From assembly GCA_947627755.1 (NCBI GenBank), contig CANQXD010000010.1:1-42452 (forward strand): a stretch of 42,452 nt of DNA. The letters are read 5' to 3'. Position 1 is the first letter of the stretch. Each line of letters opens with the position of its first letter. The notes beneath the pieces are model-generated. The model was not told where the DNA came from and did not search any database. It saw only the letters and a program-made list of their open reading frames with translations. The DNA is from an uncultured Clostridia bacterium (GTDB lineage: Bacteria; Bacillota; Clostridia; TANB77; CAG-508). Made by a program: the position numbers and the translations under genes. Shown here one piece after another: positions 505-27,596 of this stretch.

Positions 505-1807
505 TTATGCGGTTCTTTCAAAAATGTTAACAACATAATATGGATTCATCACATTTATAGCTGAACCATTACCGGTTGTACCTGTTGTGGTGGCTGCAGT
601 AGTTTGTCCACTCACATTAATCGTCGTAGTTTCAGTATTTTTGGCTTCTTCCCACGTCAGAGTCCAATCATCAAATCCCCTATTTCTGAAATTGAATGTA
701 CCGTCATTTATTACACCATATATAACTCTGTAACCAGTCCTCTCCACGAACGTGGGCATCCTACCGTATTGAACATGGGAATGGCTTCCAGACCAACTCG
801 AAACACTTGTTGATGGCACGCTATGACTATGACTTGGTAAATTATTTGTATTTAGAGTCACTGTACTGGCTCCACCGTGTTGATTTCAATGTATAACCGC
901 CCCCACTACTTACAAGCCCTTGTCCAGCACTCAATTGTTTCCATGTTCCACCGAATTTTCGTTGTACTTCTGTAGCATTTGTCAAAGTCGACGATATTAA
1001 AATACTTCCCACTGGATATATTTTATCCAACAAAGCACTTGTACTGGTTGCTGTTTCTACTTTAGCTAATTTAGTTTCTATTTCACTCAATTTACTCTCA
1101 GTTTCACTCTGTTGTGACTCCACTTGGCTTCTTAATCCCTCCAACTGCGATTGTAAACTAGCTACTTTCTCGTTTGTCTCACCTGAAGCCGCTAAGCTCT
1201 CTTGTAACGATTTTATTTGTGCATCTAAAGATTCTATCGCCGCTGAGTTTTCACTAGTAGTACTTGCCAATTCAGTTACTTGGTCTCTTAACGCTCCTAA
1301 TTCTGCACTTGTTATTCCGCTTTCTGGTCCTGTACTTCCACCGCCTTCTCCTTCTGCACCACCACTTGCTGTTTCTCCGTTTTCTATTTCGTCAAATGTT
1401 ATTACTTCGTCTCCTCCATTTGGTTTCACTCCTGTTACGGTTCCGTCGTCGTTTTTTTGTACTTCACCAAATTTTCCTAATGCATCTGCTACATCTTCAT
1501 TTGTTAGGTCTGCTCCTTTTTCTAGTTTTTTATCTAACATTGCTAGTCGCATTTCTTCTAGTAGCGCTTCTCTTTCATATAATGTTTTTGCTTCTTTTGC
1601 TCTTGAAAATATTCCGTTATGCCCTATTGTTAAGTTAATTGTTACTCCCGCTAATAACAACAGCACTATTATTGTTACTACTAATGTAATTAAAGTAATT
1701 CCTTTGTAATTTATACTGTCATTCTCTTTGTTATTTTTTCCAACTTGATTTTGGCTTTTTCCTATTGTTTCTACTTGTCTTTGCTTGTTTGTTTGTTTCT
1801 TTCTCAC
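505..1807 (-). CDS. prepilin-like surface protein with phage tail-collar-type C-terminal domain (frameshifted)
   Basis: The GTG start at 1807 has a GGAGG Shine-Dalgarno 9 bases upstream. After about 34 polar residues comes a prepilin-type segment, KGITLITLVVTIIVLLLLAG, with a G/I cleavage point but no Glu at mature position 5. A helical charged stretch, a Gly/Glu-rich linker and a coiled coil (about residues 165-255) follow. The C-terminus resembles phage tail-collar or receptor-binding domains: YPVGSI, GGTWKQL, STGG, LPSHSHS and a final NPYYVV...ERTA. The frame breaks near 877; removing one base gives GYTLKSTGGASTVTLN and a continuous 433-residue protein. The upstream frame otherwise ends about 20 residues past the break. 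Family knowledge suggests a membrane-anchored or pilus-associated surface protein. Its function is unknown. The frameshift may be a sequence error or a real lesion. Confidence 0.75.
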
Positions 1808-5591: not shown

Positions 5592-7073
5592 TTATTTCAT
5601 TTGCGTTCCATTGATAATACTATTTACAATGACTCTTTCGTCAAAAGGATATTTAATTCCGTTAATTTCTTGATATGGCTCATGTCCTTTTCCAGCAAGT
5701 ACTACAATATCCTTTTTATCTGCCATTTTAATAGCTTCACGAATAGCTTCAATTCTATCTACTACTACAATATATTTTCCTTTTGTCTTTTTTATGCCTT
5801 CTTCTATTTGTTCTACAATTTTTTGAGGATCTTCTGTTCTTGGATTGTCTGAGGTAATAATGGTAAAGTCTGCTATTCTTCCTGAAATTTCTCCCATAAT
5901 TGGACGTTTTCCTGGGTCTCTATCTCCTCCACAGCCAAATACAGAAATAACTCTTCCTCTTGTATAGGATTTAACTGCATTTAAGATATTTTCTAAACTT
6001 TCTGGTGAATGAGCATAGTCAATCATAATTGTTAAATCTTTTTTATTATTTACTAATTCTGACCTTCCTGGTACACGTACTTCTTCTAATGCTTCTTTCA
6101 TTTGCTCTGCTGTAACTCCTAATTTTTCTGCTACACAGATAGCAGCTAGTGAGTTATAAACGCTAAATCTACCTGGGATACAGGTTTTCATTCTTTCATT
6201 CTTCATTCCAATTTTTACTTTGAAATCTACATACGAATTAGTAATGGTAATGTCTTTTGCAAGTACATTACAGAAATTATCAATTCCATAAGTTGTAATA
6301 TTGCATTCTGGCACTAATTTTGGTAATTTTGCTACATGGTAATCATCGGCATTTATAAATGCTGTTTTGCACATTTTGAATAATTGTACTTTAGAAGAAT
6401 AGTAATCTTCCATATCTGGATGTTCTTTTGGACTTATATGGTCTTCTGAAAAATTGGTAAATATACCAATATCAAAATCACATCCTGCTACTCTATGTAA
6501 TTTTAAACTTTGTGAAGATACTTCCATAACAACTGTATCACAACCTGCTTCTACCATTTGCGCAAAAATAGCTTGTAATTTATTGCTTTCTGGTGTAGTT
6601 CTGTCACTATCTTCTAATTTTTTATCTCCAATGTAAGTAGCAATAGTTCCAATTAAACCTACTTTTTTGCCTGCTTTTTCTAAAATTTTCTTAATCATAA
6701 AAGTAGTAGTGGTTTTTCCTTTGGTTCCAGTTACTCCAATTAGTTTAAATTTTCTAGATGGATTTTTGTAAAAGTTGCAAGAACAAATAGCTAGTGCATA
6801 TCTTGTGTCTTTGGCAACAACTACTGTTATTTCTGCTGGAATTTTTTTAATTAAGTCTGTTGTTACTCCTTCTTGCAAAATAACAGCTTTTGCTCCTTGT
6901 GAAATTGCCGTTTCTACATAGTCATGCCCATCACTATCAAAGCCTTTAATTGCAACAAATAATCCGCCTTCTTTTATATTTCTTGAGTCTTTATCTAAAT
7001 GTGTAATTTCTACGTCTAAATTTCCTCTTACTTTTAATCCTTCAATTCCTACTAAAATTTCTTTTAATTGCAT
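5592..7073 (-). CDS. murE: UDP-N-acetylmuramoyl-tripeptide synthetase, probably meso-diaminopimelate-adding
   Basis: MurE is a cytoplasmic ATP-dependent Mur ligase that adds the third stem-peptide residue to UDP-MurNAc-L-Ala-D-Glu. The 493-residue protein has the ATP loop GVTGTKGKTTTT (about residues 114-125), the central-domain stretch TTPESNKLQ and the C-terminal DNPRTEDP. The DNPR motif is the recognised signature of meso-DAP-adding MurE, so a DAP-type wall is likely; this is inferred from the motif. AGGAGG precedes the ATG, and a TTTACA-17-TATAAT promoter lies just upstream. It is the first gene of the late dcw operon, followed closely by mraY. Confidence 0.95.
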   Translation of the reverse strand: MQLKEILVGIEGLKVRGNLDVEITHLDKDSRNIKEGGLFVAIKGFDSDGHDYVETAISQGAKAVILQEGVTTDLIKKIPAEITVVVAKDTRYALAICSCNFYKNPSRKFKLIGVTGTKGKTTTTFMIKKILEKAGKKVGLIGTIATYIGDKKLEDSDRTTPESNKLQAIFAQMVEAGCDTVVMEVSSQSLKLHRVAGCDFDIGIFTNFSEDHISPKEHPDMEDYYSSKVQLFKMCKTAFINADDYHVAKLPKLVPECNITTYGIDNFCNVLAKDITITNSYVDFKVKIGMKNERMKTCIPGRFSVYNSLAAICVAEKLGVTAEQMKEALEEVRVPGRSELVNNKKDLTIMIDYAHSPESLENILNAVKSYTRGRVISVFGCGGDRDPGKRPIMGEISGRIADFTIITSDNPRTEDPQKIVEQIEEGIKKTKGKYIVVVDRIEAIREAIKMADKKDIVVLAGKGHEPYQEINGIKYPFDERVIVNSIINGTQMK

Positions 7074-7107
7074 AGGATACCTCCTAAATTTCTAATTTCA
7101 CAAATAC

Positions 7108-7136
7108 ATTATATAACTAAAGTTTTTATTTGTAAA
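7108..7136 (-). promoter_or_regulatory. promoter of the murE operon
   Basis: Minus strand: TTTACA, 17-base spacer, TATAAT, ending 34 bases before the murE start. Together with the terminator at 7149-7186 just upstream, it shows that the late dcw genes form their own transcription unit, independent of the early dcw genes about 17 kb away. Confidence 0.7.
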
Positions 7137-7148
7137 TTATATTACTAA

Positions 7149-7186
7149 AAAAAATAATCATTACTGTTTTGTAATGATTATTTTTT
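7149..7186 (-). terminator. intrinsic terminator after the flavodiiron gene
   Basis: A perfect 16-bp stem (7149-7164 with 7171-7186) with a 6-base loop and A/T tracts at both ends. It lies about 80 bases past the flavodiiron stop. A second, imperfect AT-rich inverted repeat is present at about 7199-7232. Its symmetry would allow it to stop transcription from either side. Confidence 0.8.
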
Positions 7187-7264
7187 ATATGCTTGTTATA
7201 TTTATGTTTTAAATAATATTTTAAACATAAATATTTTAAACAATTTGTTACAACTATTTTTTAT

Positions 7265-8431
7265 TTATTTTTTTAAAATTGCCTTTGCTAGTTGTTTCAT
7301 TTCCTCTTCGTTTTCTTTGCTCATAGTTGTTTTTATATGAATAATAGGCTCTACGATTGTAATATCTTTCATTTGTTCTAGTATTTCTTGCATATTTTTG
7401 GCAGCAGCTGGTGCCCAAGAACCATTTTCAATGATACCTACTGTTCTGTTTTGGAAATTTTTGTGTTTCAAATGTCTTAAGAATTTTTCCATAAAAGGAA
7501 ATAATCCTGCATCATAAGTAGGACATGCTAAAATCATTTTATCGTAGCGAAAAGCATCTTCTATAACTTCTGCCATATCTTCTCTTGCTAAGTCAGCAAG
7601 AATTACTTTTTTTGCTCCTTCTTCTTTTAGAATTTTTTCTAATGTTTCCATGGCTTTTGCAGTGTTTCCATGAATGGAATTATAGGCAACTAATACGCCC
7701 TCGTCTTCTGGTTTATAACTGCTCCATACATCATATTTGTTTATATAATATGATAAATTTTCTTTTAAAATTGGTCCATGTAGAGGACATATCATTTGAA
7801 TATCTAGGGTAGCTGCTTTTTTTAGTAATGCTTGCACTTGCATTCCATATTTTCCTACGATATTAAAGTAATACCTTCTTGCTTCACAAGTCCAATCTTC
7901 GTCTGTATCTAGTGTTCCAAACTTTCCAAAGCCATCGGCTGAAAATAATATTTTTTCACTTTGCTCATAAGTTACCATTACTTCTGGCCAATGTACCATT
8001 GGAGCCATAAAGAATTGAAGCGTGTGCTTTCCTATATTTAAAGTATCTGCTTCTTTTACTAAAATTTGCTTTCCATCTAAAATTATGTCAAAAAATTGTG
8101 GCAACATTTTAAATGTTAACGCATTTCCTACTAATTTCATATTAGGATACTTTTCTACTAATGCCTTAATACTTGCAGAGTGGTCTGGCTCTAAATGTGA
8201 AACAACTAAATAATCTACTTCTTTTCCCTCTAGTTCTTCTTCTAAATTATGAAGCCACTCCTCTGTTTTTCTCTTGTCGACTGTATCCATAACAACAATT
8301 TTTTCATCTTTTATCACATAAGAGTTATAAGAAACTCCATTTGGAACGACATATTGACTTTCAAATAAATCGATGGTTTTGTCATCTACTCCAATATATT
8401 TTATTGCATCTGTTACTTCTATTTTTTCCAT
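7265..8431 (-). CDS. FprA-family A-type flavoprotein (flavodiiron protein)
   Basis: Flavodiiron proteins reduce O2 to water, or NO to N2O, and protect anaerobes. The 388-residue protein has a beta-lactamase-like diiron domain followed by a flavodoxin domain. Diiron ligands are visible: SHLEPDHS (HxExDH), the His of APMVHWPEV, the Asp of LFSADGFG and the His of CPLHGP. The FMN phosphate loop is YNSIHGNTAKA (about residue 255), and the length matches the core family with no extra rubredoxin domain. Its promoter (TTGACC-17-TATTAT at 8467-8495) and two identical 14-bp palindromes farther upstream suggest regulated, monocistronic expression. It lies between the cohesin gene and murE with terminators on both sides. 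Confidence 0.93.
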   Translation of the reverse strand: MEKIEVTDAIKYIGVDDKTIDLFESQYVVPNGVSYNSYVIKDEKIVVMDTVDKRKTEEWLHNLEEELEGKEVDYLVVSHLEPDHSASIKALVEKYPNMKLVGNALTFKMLPQFFDIILDGKQILVKEADTLNIGKHTLQFFMAPMVHWPEVMVTYEQSEKILFSADGFGKFGTLDTDEDWTCEARRYYFNIVGKYGMQVQALLKKAATLDIQMICPLHGPILKENLSYYINKYDVWSSYKPEDEGVLVAYNSIHGNTAKAMETLEKILKEEGAKKVILADLAREDMAEVIEDAFRYDKMILACPTYDAGLFPFMEKFLRHLKHKNFQNRTVGIIENGSWAPAAAKNMQEILEQMKDITIVEPIIHIKTTMSKENEEEMKQLAKAILKK

Positions 8432-8622: not shown

Positions 8623-9513
8623 TTATCTTTTATTTTTAAGTAATCTAATTCTAATTAAGCAAATTATTGCTAGTATTACCAATATACCAATAGTTAAAAA
8701 TATTGCTATATTAGAGTTTCCTGTTTGTGGTAATGTACCCTGTTTAATATCTTCTTTATTGTTGTTTGTTCCACCATTTTGATTAGCACTATTGCCATTT
8801 ACATTTCCAGATGCGTTTTCATTTTGGCCTTCGTTTCCACTTTGATTTCCACTTCCACTTTGTCCTTTATCTCCGCTTTGACTTCCGCTTCCACCTTGGC
8901 CTTCATTTCCGCCTTGACTTCCGCTTCCACCTTGGCCTTCGTCTCCGCTTTGGCTTCCATTTCCACCTTGGCCTTCGTCTCCGCCTTGGTTTCCACTTTC
9001 TCCTTGATTTTCTGCATCTTTACTTACTATTGTTATTGTAATAGAACTATCTTCAGCAGTTATATCAAATTCTGCATTTGTACCAGAAAAATGAGTTAAT
9101 TTGATGGTTGTTTCACCTAATTTTGCATCATCTTTTACCTTAAGGGTAATGCTTCCAATATCTTGAGGTGTTTTTACAACTTCACCATCTTCCGTAATTC
9201 CTTCTATATAAGCATCTTGATAAAGTGGTGTTTCCCAGTTACTTGTGCCGTTTGTTTCCACATATTCGAAAACAGAAGAATCAAAATCAAGATATGCAGT
9301 ATATGCACCAATTCCTTTTTCTCCGCTTTCAATAGCAATTTCACTTAATGCAATTGTAACTGTGATATTTTCTCCTTTTTTTACTGTGGAGTTATTTACA
9401 CTTAAAGATGTTTTAAAGCTATCGGTACTTGCATATACGTTTGTTGTTAATACGAATAATATTGAAATTAGTATTATACAAATTATGTTTTTAGCTTTTA
9501 TACTATTTTTCAT
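8623..9513 (-). CDS. LPXTG-anchored single-cohesin surface protein
   Basis: The 296-residue protein has an N-terminal signal peptide (cleavage near VYAS, about residue 29). One cohesin-type domain (about 34-165) shows characteristic stretches such as VKKGENITVTIAL, AYTAYLDFDSSVFEY and GSITLKVKDDAKLG. A Gly/Gln/Ser linker (about 170-250) is built from 12-residue repeats of the form GGNEGQGGSGSQ. LPQTG at about 261, a hydrophobic helix and a basic tail form a sortase signal. Cohesins bind dockerins, and a dockerin protein is encoded 48 bases upstream on the same strand, so this is probably its wall anchor. AAGGAG precedes the ATG. Whether the adjacent class B-type sortase or the one at 26862 attaches it is unknown. 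Confidence 0.88.
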   Translation of the reverse strand: MKNSIKAKNIICIILISILFVLTTNVYASTDSFKTSLSVNNSTVKKGENITVTIALSEIAIESGEKGIGAYTAYLDFDSSVFEYVETNGTSNWETPLYQDAYIEGITEDGEVVKTPQDIGSITLKVKDDAKLGETTIKLTHFSGTNAEFDITAEDSSITITIVSKDAENQGESGNQGGDEGQGGNGSQSGDEGQGGSGSQGGNEGQGGSGSQSGDKGQSGSGNQSGNEGQNENASGNVNGNSANQNGGTNNNKEDIKQGTLPQTGNSNIAIFLTIGILVILAIICLIRIRLLKNKR

Positions 9514-9561
9514 ATTTTTTTCTCCTTAATTTCTATTATTTATATTGCATTTTTAATAATA

Positions 9562-12500
9562 TTACTGTTCTTTCTTTTGCTTCAATACAAGTCTTTTCAT
9601 TAATAATAAATCAGTTACTGTTACTTTTCCGTCTCCATTGATATCTGCTGCCTTTAATTCTTCTTCTGTTAAAATCCATTCTTGTTTTAAACCTGCTACT
9701 AAATGTCTCTTTAATGCTAAAAGGTCAGTTGAATCAATTTTTCCATCTTTATTAGTATCTCCTACAACGTCTTCACTTGGTTTTTCTTCTTGTTTTTCTT
9801 CAATCCAGTTTACTGTTGCTATTGCTTCACCTTCGTTTCCAGCTTCATCTTTAAACTTAAATGTAAAGCTTCCGTTTTCTGTGAAGGTATATTCTCTGTT
9901 CATACTATTATTAGTAATAATGATAGATTCACTTTCGTCTACTAAACTTGCAGTAACTGGTTCATTTGTAGTTGTATCTATACTATATTTTATTGTTGCT
10001 GTTGGAGCATCTTTATCAATCCAATCTACTTTTGCTGTGTGCTCTTTTACTTCTACATCATCTTTATCAGAAGGATCTTTATATTTGAATACAAACTCTC
10101 CATTATTTTCAAACTTGTATTCTTTTACAGCGTTATCGTTTACCATTTTAACATCTAGTTTTTCACCTTCATTATTGATGATATATGGATTAATTGTTGC
10201 TACTACGTCTTTATTTGTTAGTTTTGTAATGTCATAAGATATATCGCTTGCAATAATGTTGTTGTCCTCCAAATAATCTGCTTTTATACTTTTATATGCT
10301 ATGTTGCTTGCTTTATCTAAAAGTTTGAACTCATAATTTCCGCTTTCTTCAAATGTATATTCTAAAGGATTTGTTCTTACTTGTTGTAATTTTCTTAATG
10401 TTTCTTTTTCGTTTTCGCTTAATTCTACACTAACACCATTTTCATCAAGGAATTCTTCCTTAGTTATTTCTCCATTTGTTAATGTTGTAACATAAGTATC
10501 AACTGTTGGAACTTTTCCTGTTGTGTTTGTATATGTAGTTTTTAAGATATTTCCATCTGCATCTAATTCTGTTACTTTATATACATTGCCTGAAGAATCT
10601 AAATAAGCAATATTTGATACTTTATTGTCTTTTACTTGAATGTAATTGATTTTGTTATTATCTTTGTCTAATAAATATACGTCTTCACTAATGCTGTCTA
10701 ATAAAATACGTAATTTTTTGTCTCCGTCTAGTTTATAATTTACATCTGCTGTTGGAGCACTTTTGTCAATCCAATCTACTTTTGCTGTTGCTGAACCTTT
10801 ATTTCCATTTTTGTCTTCAAATTCAAATGTAAATTCTCCGTTTTCTGTGAATACGTAAGTGTCGTGTCCGTCATTATTAGTTATAATAATTTCAGTACTT
10901 GGATCATCAAGTCTTGCAATTACATAATCGCTTGTTGGTTCTTGTGTACTATAATAAATTCCTGCTGTTGGTTTGCTTCTATCTATTTTTGTTACATCTT
11001 CAAATAGATTTACCATTGCAATTGAAGCAAACATATTATATGTTCCTATATCTAATTTTATATATTGTGCTTGAATGCTTTCATTGAAGTCAATCTTTTG
11101 CCATTCACCATAATTTGTACAGTTTTCTATTCTTCCTGCTTCTGTCCAATCTTCTCCATTCATACTAACATATACTACTACGTCTTTAATATCATCTGGA
11201 TCATTTACTTTATATTTTTGTTGTATAAATTCTACTGCTGAAACATATTTTGGTTCATTTAATTTTATTGTATAGAATGGTTTTGTGTTTTCTGTTATAA
11301 CATTATATCTAAAGTCTGTATGCCATATTGTATGAATATTTCCGTCAATTGCATTTGGAGCATAATATGGTCTCTTGCCGTCTACTGATTGACTTAAGTA
11401 TTCATGAACTTCTAAGTCGGAAATTCTAATATATTTTCTTGTATCTGGTTGATTGTCCTCTGTAAATGTATATACTTCTGATGCTGAACTTGCAAGTTTT
11501 GTTCCTGTTGCTCCTTGTCTTACTTGCACTGTTTTGTTTCCTGTTAGGTCTGGTGAAGCTACATTATAAGAAGTCCATTGGTCATTTTCTGTATAACGCC
11601 AATGTGTATCTGTGTTAACTCCTACTATGCGGTTTTCTAAATCATTTGCATAAAGGTTTTCTAATGGTTGTTGTCCTTCAATATCAATTTTATATACGTT
11701 ACTCTCTGAATAATCTGTTCCAACGATATGAATATAAATATCATTTTCTGCTGTTATGCTTTCTATTTCTTCCTCAGTTAATTGCCATTTATGTGGCTTA
11801 TCTGCATCAAAAGATACTTCTTTCCAAGTTTGTTTTCCGTCTAAACTGTAGTCCCAACGAACTCCAGTGTTATCATAACGACTAGAAAGTACAATTTTAT
11901 TTGCGTCTAATCCGTCAAATGAGAAACTAGCAAGTGCTGTATCTGTTTGACCAAGTAAGAAAGTAGCTACTGTTCTTGTAATACTTGGTTGTAATACTAC
12001 ATCTGTTGAATCGTAAGTTTTTCCTTCATTTAATAATTTGGTTTCTAAAAGTGTAAATTGGAATGAATATTCTACACTTGTTATTTTTTCTGAAATTTGG
12101 TCTAATAGGTTTTTCATTGGTAGTGGGAATGGCATTAGTGCCTCTCCTAAGTCTTCTGCTAATTTGTAATAATCGGCTTCTGTTTTAGCGCTATTTGCTT
12201 TATAGCTATTAATTAAACCCCACCATGCATCAAGGTTAATTTTTTGTACTTTTAATGCTTCTCTATAAATTTGTTCTTGTTTTACTGGATCTCCTTCATA
12301 TAAGTTTGCTGTCATCATAATTTTTTCTGCTTTTTCATAGTTTGCATTATCATTCATTGCTTCTTGTGCTAAAACAATATATGTTGCAGCATAACCATTA
12401 ACATAGCTATCATTTCCCCAGCCTAGAGGCATTCTAATTGCTAATCTTTCGGTTTTTCCAGATTGTGCCCAGCCAGAAACGTCGTTATCTATTGTCCAGT

Positions 12501-14226
12501 ATCCTTTACCGTCTTCTGTTTTTCTATAGTAAATAAGTGCTGCGTGTCCCGGTTGACCAATAACAGATGCTGGTGTACCATGAGCTGCTCTAATGTGTGT
12601 ACCTAATTTTGAAATACCACCACAAACAGCTCCTGTTTCTTCTATATCATTTCTCATACTCATCCATGCTTTATATACATGGTCATTTTCTGTACTATAT
12701 GTTACATGATATACAGAAAAGATTCCTTCAAATAATTTATCCCAATGGTCTTTTAATTTTTCATCATGGAAAATTGGGTTTTCAAAGTTTGGCCATATAT
12801 ATGCAATATATGTATGTGGTTGTAAATATTTTTCTTCTTGACCTGGATTAGCATCTATTCTTTTTTGTGTATATTCATTGAACCAAATAAGTTCTTCGTC
12901 GTCTGTAATGTTATTCATAACATAACGCATTTCTTCTACAGTTAATGCTTCAAACCATGGTGTATGGTCTTGTACTGGCGAACCATCCTCTTTTAGTCTT
13001 GGAGTAATTGTTCCATCTTCACTTACATTTCTAGCTACTATAAATTTTCCATTATCATATAAATATTTATAGATTTCATAACGTTTTACTGAATCAGATC
13101 TGTTGCTTGGATGGTCTATTTGAGCCCAGTAACCAACTTTTGTTGCGTGTGTTAAAGAAAGAGAAATTGCCATTTTTTTATAGACTTCACCTTTTGTAAG
13201 CTCTGGATACCATTTATTATTGGTTGGAGTGGTATCTTCGAAGTCTTTTTTATATGTACTGTAAAGTCTAGAAAGTTCTTTGATTGAATTATAATAACTT
13301 CCTCCGTCAGGTTCTCCTCCTAATACATATAAACGAAGATTTTCTACGTCTTGCATTAACCATTTTACTGCTTCCATATAGTCTGCATTTTGATTGACAA
13401 TGGCTTGTAAAAGATTGTATCCTATATTGTTTACTAAAGTTCTTTGTAATAATAGTAATTCATTTTCTCCTGTTATCTGTTCTTCTAACGTTTTATCTTT
13501 AAGAATTGCATCGTATTCTTGTACTTTTTTAAAGAAATCTACATTTTCTGGTTGTGTTTCGTCATATCCTTCTTTATATAATTTTGCGTCTGCATAAACA
13601 GCATGATCTGACGCATTGTTGCCATTATTGTAACAGTATAGTTTTAAATAATTAGCATCTTTAATATCTATTTTTACGAATACGGCATCATCTGTTCCTT
13701 TTAGTACTTTTGGGGTCTCTTCTGTTTTTAAAGTCCAATTCGTTCCATCTACTGATGTGTAGATAGAAAATTTTACACCATTTCCATTCGCTTGACGACT
13801 TTCATCTACACCAACATAGGCACTAAAATAATCATAGTCATAATTACTAATATTGTAGATTAGTGTTGATGTAGCATGGGCTGATATACCCTTTAAAAAG
13901 TGGGTTTTCTCTCCTTTTAGCAATAAGGTAATTAGTCCATTGTTGTATTGTGTTTCTAAGTTACTATCTAATGTAATACTTCCCCACTCTACTTTTGATT
14001 GTTGTGTATCATACGCTATATCTGATAGATATTCGCACATATCATTATCTCTTGATAAATAATAAACAGCTTCTTTATTTTCCATTTTTTTAGGTTGATT
14101 TTGCTTTAATATTCCTAAATTTTCTACTGTACTTTTAAGTGATAAAAATAATATTAAGAATAAAATAAGACTACTCATTGCTATGAATAGTAAGTTTCCT
14201 GTTTTATTTTTGATATTCTTTTTCAC
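9562..14226 (-). CDS. secreted multidomain dockerin protein with transglutaminase/papain-like core
   Basis: A 1554-residue exported protein with a GTG start and GGGGGAG seven bases upstream. Domains in order: signal/anchor helix (about 12-31); NPCBM-like carbohydrate-binding module (80-222; KGISAHATSTLIYNI); helical region; cysteine-peptidase or transglutaminase-like core with C535 in GAVCGGIS, H561 in GQPGHAAL and D580 in WTIDND as a candidate triad; beta-rich linker; discoidin-like domain (about 930-1075); Ig-like repeats ending TAKVDWIDKSAPTA; and a dockerin (about 1486-1550) with two calcium loops, DTNKDGKIDSTD and DINGDGKVTVTD. It is followed 48 bases later by the cohesin gene. The likely role is a glycan-targeted enzyme displayed on the wall through cohesin-dockerin binding. 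The catalytic chemistry is inferred, not known. Confidence 0.87.
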   Translation of the reverse strand: MKKNIKNKTGNLLFIAMSSLILFLILFLSLKSTVENLGILKQNQPKKMENKEAVYYLSRDNDMCEYLSDIAYDTQQSKVEWGSITLDSNLETQYNNGLITLLLKGEKTHFLKGISAHATSTLIYNISNYDYDYFSAYVGVDESRQANGNGVKFSIYTSVDGTNWTLKTEETPKVLKGTDDAVFVKIDIKDANYLKLYCYNNGNNASDHAVYADAKLYKEGYDETQPENVDFFKKVQEYDAILKDKTLEEQITGENELLLLQRTLVNNIGYNLLQAIVNQNADYMEAVKWLMQDVENLRLYVLGGEPDGGSYYNSIKELSRLYSTYKKDFEDTTPTNNKWYPELTKGEVYKKMAISLSLTHATKVGYWAQIDHPSNRSDSVKRYEIYKYLYDNGKFIVARNVSEDGTITPRLKEDGSPVQDHTPWFEALTVEEMRYVMNNITDDEELIWFNEYTQKRIDANPGQEEKYLQPHTYIAYIWPNFENPIFHDEKLKDHWDKLFEGIFSVYHVTYSTENDHVYKAWMSMRNDIEETGAVCGGISKLGTHIRAAHGTPASVIGQPGHAALIYYRKTEDGKGYWTIDNDVSGWAQSGKTERLAIRMPLGWGNDSYVNGYAATYIVLAQEAMNDNANYEKAEKIMMTANLYEGDPVKQEQIYREALKVQKINLDAWWGLINSYKANSAKTEADYYKLAEDLGEALMPFPLPMKNLLDQISEKITSVEYSFQFTLLETKLLNEGKTYDSTDVVLQPSITRTVATFLLGQTDTALASFSFDGLDANKIVLSSRYDNTGVRWDYSLDGKQTWKEVSFDADKPHKWQLTEEEIESITAENDIYIHIVGTDYSESNVYKIDIEGQQPLENLYANDLENRIVGVNTDTHWRYTENDQWTSYNVASPDLTGNKTVQVRQGATGTKLASSASEVYTFTEDNQPDTRKYIRISDLEVHEYLSQSVDGKRPYYAPNAIDGNIHTIWHTDFRYNVITENTKPFYTIKLNEPKYVSAVEFIQQKYKVNDPDDIKDVVVYVSMNGEDWTEAGRIENCTNYGEWQKIDFNESIQAQYIKLDIGTYNMFASIAMVNLFEDVTKIDRSKPTAGIYYSTQEPTSDYVIARLDDPSTEIIITNNDGHDTYVFTENGEFTFEFEDKNGNKGSATAKVDWIDKSAPTADVNYKLDGDKKLRILLDSISEDVYLLDKDNNKINYIQVKDNKVSNIAYLDSSGNVYKVTELDADGNILKTTYTNTTGKVPTVDTYVTTLTNGEITKEEFLDENGVSVELSENEKETLRKLQQVRTNPLEYTFEESGNYEFKLLDKASNIAYKSIKADYLEDNNIIASDISYDITKLTNKDVVATINPYIINNEGEKLDVKMVNDNAVKEYKFENNGEFVFKYKDPSDKDDVEVKEHTAKVDWIDKDAPTATIKYSIDTTTNEPVTASLVDESESIIITNNSMNREYTFTENGSFTFKFKDEAGNEGEAIATVNWIEEKQEEKPSEDVVGDTNKDGKIDSTDLLALKRHLVAGLKQEWILTEEELKAADINGDGKVTVTDLLLMKRLVLKQKKEQ

Positions 14227-14262: not shown

Positions 14263-14291
14263 ATTATAACATATTTTTCTTGTTCTGTAAA
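14263..14291 (-). promoter_or_regulatory. promoter of the dockerin-cohesin operon
   Basis: Minus strand: TTTACA, 17-base spacer, TATAAT, about 37 bases before the GTG start. No separate promoter was noticed in the 48-base gap before the cohesin gene, supporting a two-gene operon. Confidence 0.65.
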
Positions 14292-16352: not shown

Positions 16353-16589
16353 GTGTCCTTGTAATTGTTTTATTTTATTGTGAAAAAATGTGATAATGTC
16401 TCAACATTTATTCTTATTATGATATTCAAAATGAAATTTAATACAAAAAATTTAAAAGCGCGAAAAATGTAGAAAAATAACAAATTTTCTATAAAAAAAA
16501 GAGAATTTGTATAAAAATATAATATTAAGAAATAATAATAACAAATACAAATGTATTTCAAAAAAATAAAAAAGAAAGGAAAAAAAATT

Positions 16590-17720
16590 ATGAAACATTT
16601 TAAAAAAATAACTTTATTTTTTATGGCAGCAATTTTAGGACTAATTTTAAGTTCTAATTTTAGTTATGCTGCAACTGCTTCTGCAAATAATGAAGCTACT
16701 TTAAGAGAAGCAATTAATGGTGCTACTGAAGCAACTGTTATTGAGCTTCAAAATGATATTTCTTTAACAAGTCCTATTGAAATAACAGATAAGACAATTA
16801 CTATTAACGGAAATGGACATACTATTACAAAGGACGCTACTACTTGGAATGATAATGGTCCAAATGGTAGTTTATTAACAGCTGGTGCAGGTGCAAAACT
16901 TACTTTAAATAATCTTAGTTTAACAAATAGCCATAAATATGGTGTTCAATCTTATAACGGAGGTTATGTTGTATTAAATCAAGTAAAAGCTATGAATAAC
17001 GGATTTGGTGGTGTTCTAGCTAATGGTGGTACTATTGAAGTTATAGACTTATATTTAGGACACAATGGACAAGCAGATTCTAATAATGGTATTGAAATTT
17101 CACAAGGTCAAGCAGTTGCTGAAGAAAATAAATCAACTGTAAAAATGAATGGTAAAATTTCTTCTAACCAAACAACTAATGTTGTTTATGTAGATATGCC
17201 AGAAGATTCTCATGGTTTTGATATTGTAAATGACGAAAACAGTGAAAATAAAATATTCGTAAGTGGTAATCAATTAGTTGTAACTGACCCTCAAAATAAT
17301 ATTTTATATTCAAGCAATGAAATTGAAAATATTGGCAATAATGTTGAAGCAGAATCTTACATTGAAAATATGGTTGTAACGCTTCATATAAACGACAAAA
17401 CTGTTAATATGAGCGTAATATATGGTCGTGTTATTACTAAAGAGCAAGTAGAACAAAAAGCTGATTTAGCTAATTTAGGCCTTGAAAACTACACTATCGC
17501 TGGTTTTTATAGTGATGCAGAGTATAAAAACGAATTTGATTTTTCAAAAGGAATTATAACAAATACAGATATTTATTTAAAACTTGCTGAAAAACCTACT
17601 GTAGCACCAGAGAAGGATAATACACCAAAAACAGGAATTGTTGATTTTAGTTTAGTTGCTATGTTTATTTTTGCTACTTCTAGCATTTCACTTGTTGCAT
17701 TAAGAAGAAAAGAAAAATAA
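16590..17720 (+). CDS. TPKTG-tailed surface protein with right-handed beta-helix
   Basis: A 376-residue secreted wall protein. A signal peptide ends near FSYAATA (about residue 28). Residues about 30-215 show hydrophobic-Asn ladder repeats (ITDKTITINGNGHTIT, LTLNNLSLTNS) typical of a pectate-lyase-like beta-helix. A single InlB B-repeat-like domain (about 255-335; IAGFYSDAEYKNEFDFSKGI) follows. The C-terminus is TPKTG, a hydrophobic helix and RRKEK, an LPXTG-variant sortase signal. I chose the ATG at 16590, which has AGAAAGGA upstream and begins the signal peptide; an in-frame ATG 13 codons earlier adds only lysine-rich residues. The next gene on the same strand is a sortase, likely its anchoring enzyme. 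Ligand unknown. Confidence 0.8.
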   Translation: MKHFKKITLFFMAAILGLILSSNFSYAATASANNEATLREAINGATEATVIELQNDISLTSPIEITDKTITINGNGHTITKDATTWNDNGPNGSLLTAGAGAKLTLNNLSLTNSHKYGVQSYNGGYVVLNQVKAMNNGFGGVLANGGTIEVIDLYLGHNGQADSNNGIEISQGQAVAEENKSTVKMNGKISSNQTTNVVYVDMPEDSHGFDIVNDENSENKIFVSGNQLVVTDPQNNILYSSNEIENIGNNVEAESYIENMVVTLHINDKTVNMSVIYGRVITKEQVEQKADLANLGLENYTIAGFYSDAEYKNEFDFSKGIITNTDIYLKLAEKPTVAPEKDNTPKTGIVDFSLVAMFIFATSSISLVALRRKEK

Positions 17721-17875: not shown

Positions 17876-18691
17876 ATGAAGAAAAAAAATTTTAAAAAAG
17901 TGGCTATTGCTATTATTTATATAATAGCAGCTATGTTAATGGTTGGTTCCTTGTTTTATCTTATTCAATATTACAATGCCCTTCATAATGCAAAAAAGCA
18001 AACAGATTTATTAAATGAAGTTTCATTGGAAGAAAATATAATTGAATCAGAAAATATTGCAAGTGAAAATTCAGAAAATTTTACTAAGCAAAATACAGAG
18101 CGAATGTTAAAATTAGCGGAATTACAAAAAGAAAATTCCGACATTATTGGTTGGCTTGAAATTGAAGGCACCAATATCAATTACCCTGTTTTACAAGGTT
18201 CGGATAATGATTTTTATATGGATCATGATTACCAAAAAAAGAATACTATGGTTGGTTCTATTTTTTTAGATAAAGATTATGAGTGGGAGCCTGCTAGTAG
18301 TAATTTATTGATTTATGGTCATAATATTAAAAATGGTACTATGTTTCAAAATTTATTAAATTATAGAGAAAAAAGTTATTATGAAGAGCATTCTACTATT
18401 CGTTTTACTACAAGTAAAGAAGATGTATATTATGAAATTATTGCTGCATTTCCTTCAAGAGTTTACAACAAGTCTGATAAAAATGTATTTCGCTATTATA
18501 GCTTTATTAATGCTCAAAATGAAAATGAATATAACGAATTTGTAGAAAATGCCAAAAAAGCCTCTTTATATGATACTGGAAAAACAGCTATATATGGAGA
18601 GCAATTAATGACATTATCTACTTGTGCTTATCACGTAACTGACGGAAGGTTTGCTGTTGTTGCAAAGAAAGCCTCTGTTGTAAAACCTTAA
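17876..18691 (+). CDS. class B-type sortase
   Basis: A membrane-bound transpeptidase that attaches proteins carrying LPXTG-like signals to the wall. One N-terminal membrane helix (about residues 9-29) is followed by a charged stalk and the sortase barrel. Catalytic residues are visible: His in LLIYGHNIKNGTMF, Cys in LMTLSTCAYHVTDGR (the TLSTC signature of class B) and the downstream Arg of DGRFAVVAKK. TAGGAG lies before the ATG; 271 residues is normal. It follows a TPKTG-tailed protein on the same strand and lies 8-9 kb from the LPQTG cohesin protein, so these are its likely substrates. Class assignment rests on the motif pattern and the extra helix before the catalytic Cys. Confidence 0.9.
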   Translation: MKKKNFKKVAIAIIYIIAAMLMVGSLFYLIQYYNALHNAKKQTDLLNEVSLEENIIESENIASENSENFTKQNTERMLKLAELQKENSDIIGWLEIEGTNINYPVLQGSDNDFYMDHDYQKKNTMVGSIFLDKDYEWEPASSNLLIYGHNIKNGTMFQNLLNYREKSYYEEHSTIRFTTSKEDVYYEIIAAFPSRVYNKSDKNVFRYYSFINAQNENEYNEFVENAKKASLYDTGKTAIYGEQLMTLSTCAYHVTDGRFAVVAKKASVVKP

Positions 18692-26861: not shown

Positions 26862-27596
26862 TTATTTAATTTCTTTTGCTTTTACTACTAATCTTTGTGT
26901 TCCATAATTGGTACAAGTTATTAATGTAACTTCTCTTCTACCGTTTGTTAATTGGCTCGTGCAAGAAGTATCTGTTGGATTTACTACATATTTGTTATAA
27001 ACAGAATATTTTACTACTTTTCCATCTACTCCTTCAAGCTCTATAATATCGTCGTTTACTATTTCAGATAAACGTCCAAACATTGTTTTATTTTTATAAT
27101 TATGTCCTACAATACAATAATTTCCTACTTCATTAGGACCTTTTCCCCAATATTTATTTACTGATCTTTTTAGAAGCTCCTCTGATGTTTCTGAAAATAC
27201 AGGATAGTCTATTCCTAAACGTGGAATTCGAAGGAAAGCTTCAATATTATATGTAACATTATTTATAGTATATTCTAAGTTAGCAGGTGGTTCATCTAAT
27301 ACTACATAATCTTCGGGTTCTTCATTATCTTCCAATGCTACTACGATAATATCATCTACTTTTTTTATGGTAGTATCTACAGTAGTGTTTTCTGTTTCTT
27401 TTTGTTTTGCTAACCCTGCTAATATTTCTTGAGATACTTCCTCGCTTTTAGTTCTATCGTATTCTGCATAAATATAATAAGAAAATAATAAACATGCTAA
27501 AAATACGCAGCAAAAAAATTGTAATTTATACAATTTCTTTTTTCTACGTAATTCTGGTGTTACATATATTTTTTCTGTAACCAAAATTTGATTCAT
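26862..27596 (-). CDS. sortase family protein (second sortase)
   Basis: A 244-residue membrane-anchored transpeptidase. A basic N-terminus and one helix (about residues 25-44) are followed by an acidic stalk and the sortase domain from about residue 110 (IEAFLRIPRLGIDYPVFSE). Catalytic His is in YCIVGHNYKNKTMF, Cys in VTLITCTNYGTQRLVV (TLxTC), and the Arg of TQRLVV completes the site. It lacks the extra length of the class B-type enzyme at 17876 and resembles class D/E or a short class B enzyme; class is uncertain. It lies between rsmA and mraZ with its own terminator. No substrate gene is adjacent; the LPQTG and TPKTG proteins are the only candidates in the window. Confidence 0.85.
   Translation of the reverse strand: MNQILVTEKIYVTPELRRKKKLYKLQFFCCVFLACLLFSYYIYAEYDRTKSEEVSQEILAGLAKQKETENTTVDTTIKKVDDIIVVALEDNEEPEDYVVLDEPPANLEYTINNVTYNIEAFLRIPRLGIDYPVFSETSEELLKRSVNKYWGKGPNEVGNYCIVGHNYKNKTMFGRLSEIVNDDIIELEGVDGKVVKYSVYNKYVVNPTDTSCTSQLTNGRREVTLITCTNYGTQRLVVKAKEIK

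Follow-up and report, generated by a model that had tools for sequence, protein, structure and literature searches.

A cohesin-dockerin gene pair as a probable private two-piece surface anchor in an uncultured Clostridia bacterium

We analyzed a 42,452-nucleotide stretch of DNA (hereafter the window) from an uncultured Clostridia bacterium, contig CANQXD010000010.1 of assembly GCA_947627755.1, in which a gene for a 1554-residue dockerin protein is directly followed by a gene for a single-cohesin protein with an LPQTG sorting signal. The two genes most probably form a cognate two-piece anchor, one private pair per enzyme with no shared scaffold. This reading draws on the gene order and domains of the pair, the missing anchor of the dockerin protein, the alternative anchoring of its homologues, the co-variation of dockerin and cohesin, and the lack of open reading frames (ORFs) with several cohesins in the fetched loci. 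The window is contig C10 of a 69-contig genome bin (1.64 Mb, 97% complete), whose closest named relatives are rabbit-gut metagenome-assembled genomes (MAGs) deposited as 'uncultured Clostridia bacterium' ('rabbit' being taken from the isolate name Lapin). The features of the pair, with domain positions in amino acids (aa), are:

8623..9513 (-), single-cohesin wall-anchor protein, 296 aa: signal peptide, cohesin, linker, LPQTG, hydrophobic stretch, positive tail
9088..9405 (-), cohesin domain, aa 37-142 (PF00963 E 8.4e-8, 32.9 bits vs 24.1)
8740..9021 (-), low-complexity G/S/N/Q linker, predicted from sequence to run across the wall
8626..8736 (-), sorting signal region: LPQTG at 8722-8736, hydrophobic stretch, positive tail RIRLLKNKR
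9514..9561 (-), intergenic gap from dockerin to cohesin gene, 48 bp, Shine-Dalgarno AAGGAG at 9527-9522
9562..14226 (-), secreted dockerin protein, presumed cargo for anchoring, 1554 aa, GTG start
9586..9762 (-), type I dockerin, aa 1489-1547 (Pfam PF00404 E 3.8e-15, 56 bits vs cut-off 22.9)
11014..11364 (-), F5/8 type C (CBM32-like) domain, aa 955-1071 (Pfam PF00754 E 1.4e-14)
11617..13539 (-), unnamed core, aa about 230-870, no Pfam name; papain/transglutaminase-like by motif only
13579..14031 (-), NPCBM domain (carbohydrate binding), aa 66-216 (Pfam PF08305 E 4.3e-25)
14263..14291 (-), promoter-like site immediately upstream of the dockerin gene, TTTACA-17-TATAAT with extended -10, the best of the region by consensus match only

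An initial annotation, made from the sequence alone, had described the one-cohesin LPQTG protein directly after the dockerin protein, and its coordinates and features are correct: the domains pass Pfam and TIGR cut-offs, and a scan of the 48-bp gap between the two genes found no terminator-like site. The LPXTG region scores 20.5 bits against a cut-off of 20 for Gram_pos_anchor (PF00746) and 18.4 against 15.9 for TIGR01167. An AlphaFold2 model of the cohesin (pLDDT, the predicted local distance difference test, 71; four sequences) matched cohesins first in Foldseek, the top match being the OlpA cohesin (3ul4_A, E 2.9e-6). Pfam found no catalytic domain in the 296-aa protein, which, with one cohesin, an LPXTG signal and no dockerin, belongs with the single-cohesin, non-S-layer-homology (non-SLH) anchoring scaffoldins (ScaE-like).

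The 1554-aa protein opens with a hydrophobic segment (a signal or an N-terminal transmembrane [TM] segment) and continues with the NPCBM domain, the unnamed core of about 640 aa, the F5/8 type C domain, immunoglobulin-like (Ig-like) repeats recognized by eye, and the C-terminal dockerin. It lacks any wall or membrane anchor at its C-terminus, and Pfam recognized no glycoside hydrolase (GH) domain in it, in agreement with the initial annotation. Pfam and alignment resolve the dockerin into two Ca-binding repeats, DTNKDGKIDSTDLLALKRHL and DINGDGKVTVTDLLLMKRLV, and the alignment places ST/KR-type residues at the recognition positions, as in classical type I dockerins. Together, the recognizable cohesin and the two-repeat Ca-binding dockerin qualify by sequence as a type I pair. 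When related genomes were searched, as the initial annotation had proposed, the same gene pair was found in the same order in other species and genera, so the pair is not a chance arrangement. Orthologues of the 1554-aa protein occur in 8 other genomes of the genus, and relatives of its core in 106 of 385 genomes of the order, across 17 genera.

Homologues of the window enzyme carry either a dockerin or an anchor of their own. We fetched 40 homologous loci, yielding 38 homologues with a complete C-terminus. A dockerin C-terminus with no own anchor was found in 31 of the 38, with a cohesin gene next in 24 of these 31; the remaining seven have their own LPXTG signal (LPYTG, LPQTG, LPETG, LPQTG) or TM segment and neither a dockerin nor a cohesin neighbor. 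Dockerin and own anchor never occurred together (Fisher p 8e-8), the TM flag on a single dockerin homologue (L182) having proved, when read by eye, to fall on the dockerin itself. Genus-wide, a C-terminal hydrophobic anchor was called in only one of 129 dockerin proteins; of the other 128, 22 are cut by contig or fetch ends. Since both states exist among homologues, the comparison suggests that a wall- or membrane-fused enzyme may split into an enzyme and a separate anchor.

The dockerin also varies together with the cohesin of the neighboring gene. In the window family (31 pairs), the similarity of dockerins followed that of the neighbors' cohesins with a rank r of 0.80, or 0.82 after partialling out the enzyme core (p 0.0005, the floor of 2000 permutations), while the r between dockerin and own enzyme core was 0.10. 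Dockerins with TATDLLLxKRHLV pair with 'IxIESGEKGIGAYTA'-type cohesins, those with FxDILQINKHRL with 'DGINGIDTTYSYD'-type cohesins, and those with TPTDLADAIQ with 'DDGIRSIKVGK'-type cohesins. Co-variation was likewise found (partial r 0.40, p 0.0005) among 23 orthologous pairs of autolysin-like proteins and their partners, with one pair from each genome. In the window's own genome, the recognition segments differ clearly among the four non-phage dockerins: STDLLALKRH, SIDLLRVQRH, TLDSLKALKQ and TNDIVLFKLD.

The initial annotation had counted one cohesin and one dockerin, which is true of the locus and not of the genome, where Pfam finds 5 cohesins and 4 dockerins. The genome has four dockerin-then-partner gene pairs; besides that of the window, two begin with autolysin-like proteins and one with a transglutaminase (TGase)-like protein. 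On contig C28, an autolysin (glucosaminidase-like, SagB/AtlE-like) with SH3 domains and a dockerin is followed by a divergent Ig-like/SH3/cadherin-like/TM protein. Contig C16 holds both a second autolysin-like dockerin protein, followed by a cohesin-like protein with a TM segment, and a TGase-cohesin-dockerin protein, followed by a cohesin protein with a TM segment; the dockerin of the TGase protein was detected by a hidden Markov model (HMM) built for the genus and missed by Pfam.

Across 27 genomes of the genus, Pfam counts range from 0 to 9 cohesins and from 1 to 18 dockerins per genome. Defining a pair as a cohesin gene after a dockerin gene on the same strand within 800 bp (≤800 bp, by Pfam), we counted 26 pairs against 0.16 expected by random placement, with no opposite-strand pairs and 4 in reverse order. 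By the genus HMM, the next gene was a cohesin gene for 51 of the 110 dockerin genes with a same-strand next gene, and these 51 neighbors comprise 27 with LPXTG, 14 with TM and 10 without a called anchor (41 anchored); for a further 31 of the 110, the next gene encodes another TM or LPXTG protein. Many cohesins and dockerins elsewhere in the genome, which the initial annotation had named as the sign of an ordinary cellulosome, did not appear: counts per genome are low, and the cohesin loci fetched from the 27 genomes contained no ORF with more than one cohesin. The system is therefore not a cellulosome, and an ordinary cellulosome is ruled out. The dockerin proteins of the window's own genome, to which this comparison is limited, are the NPCBM/core/CBM32 protein, two autolysin-like proteins, one TGase-like protein and one phage tail protein, not the several plant-polysaccharide GHs of a cellulosome.

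The sequences suggest the following mechanism. The 1554-aa protein would be secreted unanchored at its C-terminus, and its type I dockerin would bind the single cohesin encoded by the neighboring gene. A sortase would attach the cohesin protein to the wall via LPQTG, and the enzyme would be kept at the surface by a strong non-covalent, presumably Ca-dependent link. The pair would stand in for the C-terminal LPXTG or TM segment that other homologues of this enzyme carry. Each pair of a genome appears to have its own recognition type, with dockerin and cohesin changing together, and hence would give each enzyme a private docking site and not a place on a shared scaffold. Binding, its calcium dependence, sortase attachment and catalytic activity are what we infer here from sequence.

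The sortase in question may be one encoded nearby. The relevant features are:

17876..18691 (+), class B sortase (SrtB), TIGR03064 161.6 bits vs 153.75; possible enzyme for the anchor
16551..17720 (+), p16551, 389-aa secreted protein ending in TPKTG, TM segment and positive tail; immediate neighbor of SrtB
26862-27596, second window sortase, closest to classes C/D/E, below those cut-offs

The class B-type sortase that the initial annotation saw a few kb from the pair is thus real, and it possibly acts on the LPQTG anchor. LPQTG differs from the classical SrtB signal. The adjacent p16551 is, from its sequence and synteny, the likely substrate of SrtB, and both genes stay together with the dockerin-cohesin pair in several genera. 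Elsewhere the pair also occurs with no SrtB near it in the fetched stretch, and the genome encodes 9 sortases. A search with a DNA pattern for LPXTG was too unspecific, its matches equalling those of its control.

Several points weigh against the reading of the pair as a private anchor. Some dockerin proteins have no cohesin gene next door, and one cohesin-LPKTG protein of contig C16 has no adjacent dockerin gene; divergent cohesins may escape the models, and the MAGs are incomplete. The 40 homologous loci were selected to cover a spread and are not a random sample, and co-variation fell short of significance (partial r 0.29, p 0.08) in a second, smaller autolysin cluster (11 pairs). The 'private' specificity is read from sequence motifs, and partners may cross-bind within a genome. 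Such cross-binding is the essence of a reduced, shared mini-cellulosome, in which a genome's anchors and dockerin proteins would bind freely, displaying mixed surface enzymes, and adjacency would reflect co-regulation only. This arrangement, which would suit the coexistence of several anchors and dockerin proteins in one genome, the dockerin genes lacking a cohesin neighbor and the possible chaining through a TGase protein that bears both cohesin and dockerin, is nevertheless unlikely given that the four non-phage dockerins differ clearly in recognition segment, that dockerin type tracks the neighbor's cohesin and that no multi-cohesin ORF was found.

We regard it as quite improbable that the cohesin and the dockerin survive as relics or work with other partners, their co-variation arising from gene ends that travel together. 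The Ca-binding repeats and the cohesin are intact in nearly all pairs though their sequences change type, and the dockerin-less homologues have a substitute anchor and no cohesin gene. The two modules are contiguous (about 0.7 kb), however, and because they are neighboring DNA, linkage alone could add to, or even yield, the correlation; joint inheritance of the segment, and not binding, could thus account for part of it, a further point against private anchoring. Function is favored over linkage alone by the recurrence of the pattern in unrelated enzyme families and by the either/or relation with own anchors. Least credible, and in our judgment very improbable, is the strict version of the initial annotation, a unique pair per genome attached by the nearby class B sortase: the persistent linkage of SrtB and p16551 to the pair in several genera speaks for it, but the signal is LPQTG, SrtB is one of several sortases and is not always near, and the three further dockerin-then-partner pairs rule out a unique one. 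What stands of its 'dedicated wall display' is the display of an enzyme by one cohesin and one dockerin, well supported by the alternative anchors and the co-variation; the 'single enzyme' does not, with three further pairs in the genome and dozens in the genus.

Beyond the window, and with somewhat less than even confidence, we tentatively extend the private-anchor reading to the bacterial family, where cohesin and dockerin may act as a private, exchangeable anchoring cassette. The cassette would span the junction of two genes as contiguous DNA, with the dockerin at the 3' end of the first and the cohesin at the 5' end of the second; both would be exchanged or re-specified as a unit and would substitute for a covalent anchor. 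Each genome would have several mutually orthogonal pairs but no scaffold, and other dockerin-bound Ig-like domains would have taken the place of the cohesin in some autolysin pairs. The autolysin partner (L013 8788-10305, with orthologues in most of the 27 genomes) has an N-terminal domain of three widely differing Ig-like classes, and the class agrees with the dockerin type, which looks as though non-cohesin domains had taken over as the dockerin's receptor. We do not call these domains cohesins because their hhalign similarity to cohesins is weak (probability 33-72%, control 0.3%).

Other cohesins and dockerins occur outside such pairs. The cohesin-LPKTG protein of contig C16 (L010 6436-8268(+)) has a single cohesin, its own sortase gene directly downstream and no dockerin gene just upstream, and is possibly an anchor with a dedicated sortase. 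Contig C42 encodes a 2592-aa M60/ZmpA-like metalloprotease (L012 6548-14326(-)) with an N-terminal cohesin and an internal TM segment, an enzyme-borne cohesin as in Clostridium perfringens. A gp58-like phage tail protein of the same genome (contig C32, L014 2510-3988(-)) has a weak dockerin, and strong dockerins lie beside tail-type genes in two relatives (L119 6977-7654(-), L132 6578-7192(+)); phages might use surface cohesins as receptors.

The core of the 1554-aa protein contains triad-like residues, which are invariant in 10 orthologues and retained by nearly all other homologues that were read:

12622-12624 (-), Cys535, motif GAVCGGISK
12544-12546 (-), His561, motif GQPGHAA
12487-12489 (-), Asp580, motif YWxIDNDVSGW

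The Cys-His-Asp order and spacing match papain/transglutaminase-like enzymes, and the TGase proteins of the genus carry a comparable VCEGFARAF / EEHAWN / YAVDVTWD pattern. The resemblance to a transglutaminase is one of motif only: Pfam on six members gave nothing usable, and a profile comparison with the genus TGase family returned an hhalign probability of 0.2%. An AlphaFold2 model of the core (pLDDT 40, four sequences only) gave no usable fold support, and a PDB profile search returned weak tetratricopeptide repeat-like matches and nothing else. The core was not found in the viral contigs searched, and a search of phages returned one NPCBM match and no other. Our best guess, held at about even confidence, is a Cys-His-Asp hydrolase or transferase acting on glycan-bound protein; with its NPCBM and CBM32-like domains, the protein could be guessed to modify proteins on glycosylated substrates.

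The pair sits inside the division and cell wall (dcw) cluster, near the class B sortase gene, as the initial annotation had placed it. The dcw genes of the window, MraY and MraZ being named from sequence, are, by position:

2184, MurG
3337, FtsW
4592, MraY
5592, MurE
18777, penicillin-binding protein (PBP)
24957, RsmH
26305, MraZ

The pair is flanked by LtaS-like/PBP genes on one side and by flavodiiron protein (FDP)/MurE/MraY/FtsW/MurG genes on the other. Locus L015 retains the order PBP-LtaS-[pair]-FDP-MurE-MraY-FtsW-MurG and L016 the order [pair]-FDP-MurE-MraY-FtsW-MurG, while L017 has MraZ-RsmH-FtsL-PBP, then the pair and then a class B sortase; dcw genes, or SrtB with p16551, are retained near the pair at several loci from other genera. 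At L017, a transposase gene (6683-7828(-), IS30-like by eye) lies between the PBP gene and the pair, a possible means of moving it.

A separate observation, made across this bacterial family, is that the CGG codon appears to behave as a site of +1 frameshifting. CGG is very rare in frame, and at the sites in question an in-frame stop soon follows it; if the C is skipped and reading resumes at GGN (Gly), the product spanned by intact homologues is restored. Such sites account for 54 of 169 CGG codons in the loci of the 27 genus genomes, compared with 1-8 of 164-1435 (about 0.3-1.6%) for CGA, CGC, CCC, CTC, GGG and ACG and 25 of 1116 (2.2%) for AGG; in other genera, 6 of 14 CGG codons behave likewise. 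Sequencing errors are unlikely because sites are shared between species, the site in gpsA by four and those in both genes of a dockerin-cohesin pair by seven. Examples are window 505-1807(-), with CGG at 875-877, and L010 927-1911 (gpsA), L156 and L185 (PBP) and L171 (MurE), the housekeeping genes affected being GpsA (LSGPS motif), PBP and MurE. The window pair contains no CGG. Both genes of an autolysin-dockerin / cohesin-TM pair contain CGG at L031, L033, L066, L071, L074, L081 and L086; in those seven genomes only the +1 shift gives access to the second dockerin repeat and to the cohesin protein's anchor half, and the post-shift protein sequence is conserved. No CGG-reading tRNA was found in the incomplete set of own-genome tRNAs, which includes Arg-ACG and Arg-CCT. 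Two adjacent odd tRNA-like genes (L218 1398-1575, G000:C8:16021-16198) have 8- and 6-base anticodon loops by ARAGORN, and one resembles tRNA-Gly with CCG in the loop, with a whole match in one other genus genome only; being whole in two genomes only, they are ruled out as the cause. CGG has been reported to be unassigned or reassigned in some low-GC bacteria (PMC8629427), and its use as a +1 site was not reported in the literature searched.

The best-known setting of cohesins and dockerins is the cellulosome, in which many cohesins meet a single dockerin type. A lineage that uses them one-to-one as anchors, the two sides of each of its dozens of natural pairs changing together, would amount to a natural experiment on the evolution of protein-interaction specificity and would give a set of probably orthogonal pairs for engineering. 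OlpA and OlpC of Clostridium thermocellum are anchored by SLH domains. Like the window anchor, they are single type I cohesin anchors; they can bind an enzyme dockerin, as is presumed for the window anchor, and theirs is the closest solved cohesin fold (3ul4, 4dh2). They differ in their SLH anchoring, in belonging to a cellulosome host and in not being encoded one-to-one beside each enzyme. ScaE of Ruminococcus flavefaciens, a single cohesin with LPXTG, holds ScaB and CttA on the wall (PMC2930009). It resembles the window anchor in having one cohesin and a sortase signal and in holding, as we presume here, a dockerin protein on the wall, but it forms the base of a large cellulosome, holding a scaffoldin and an adhesin, whereas the presumed partner of the window anchor is the adjacent enzyme, with no scaffoldin. 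R. flavefaciens also has dockerins on predicted transglutaminase-like proteins of unknown role (PMC2930009), a family to which the window core showed no profile similarity, as tested against the genus TGase proteins.

Published classes already include a 'non-SLH anchoring scaffoldin', with at least one cohesin and LPXTG or a C-terminal TM segment, and a 'single-cohesin protein', with one cohesin and unknown function (PMC11557425). There they sit beside multi-cohesin scaffoldins and dockerin-bearing GH (DocGH) enzymes, whereas here such proteins are the only cohesin anchors found. The C. perfringens complexes (Adams 2008, as described in PMC12997984) are pairwise cohesin-dockerin links between enzymes without a scaffoldin, which the window pair resembles in its single cohesin, presumed pairwise link and lack of a scaffoldin; the C. 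perfringens cohesin is borne by another glycoside hydrolase, unlike that of the window, which is on a non-catalytic wall anchor and not on an enzyme. The mucinolysome of Limousia, among gut Clostridia, has dockerin peptidases and a sortase-anchored cohesin protein, cSca5 (PMC12997984), but differs in its multi-cohesin scaffoldins and many dockerin GHs. A system built only of adjacent enzyme-dockerin and cohesin-anchor genes with many specificities was not found in the open-access literature searched. Single-cohesin LPXTG anchors, LPXTG/TM anchoring scaffoldins and scaffold-free pairwise links are thus already known; what appears new is the occurrence of ScaE/OlpA-like anchors without scaffoldins.

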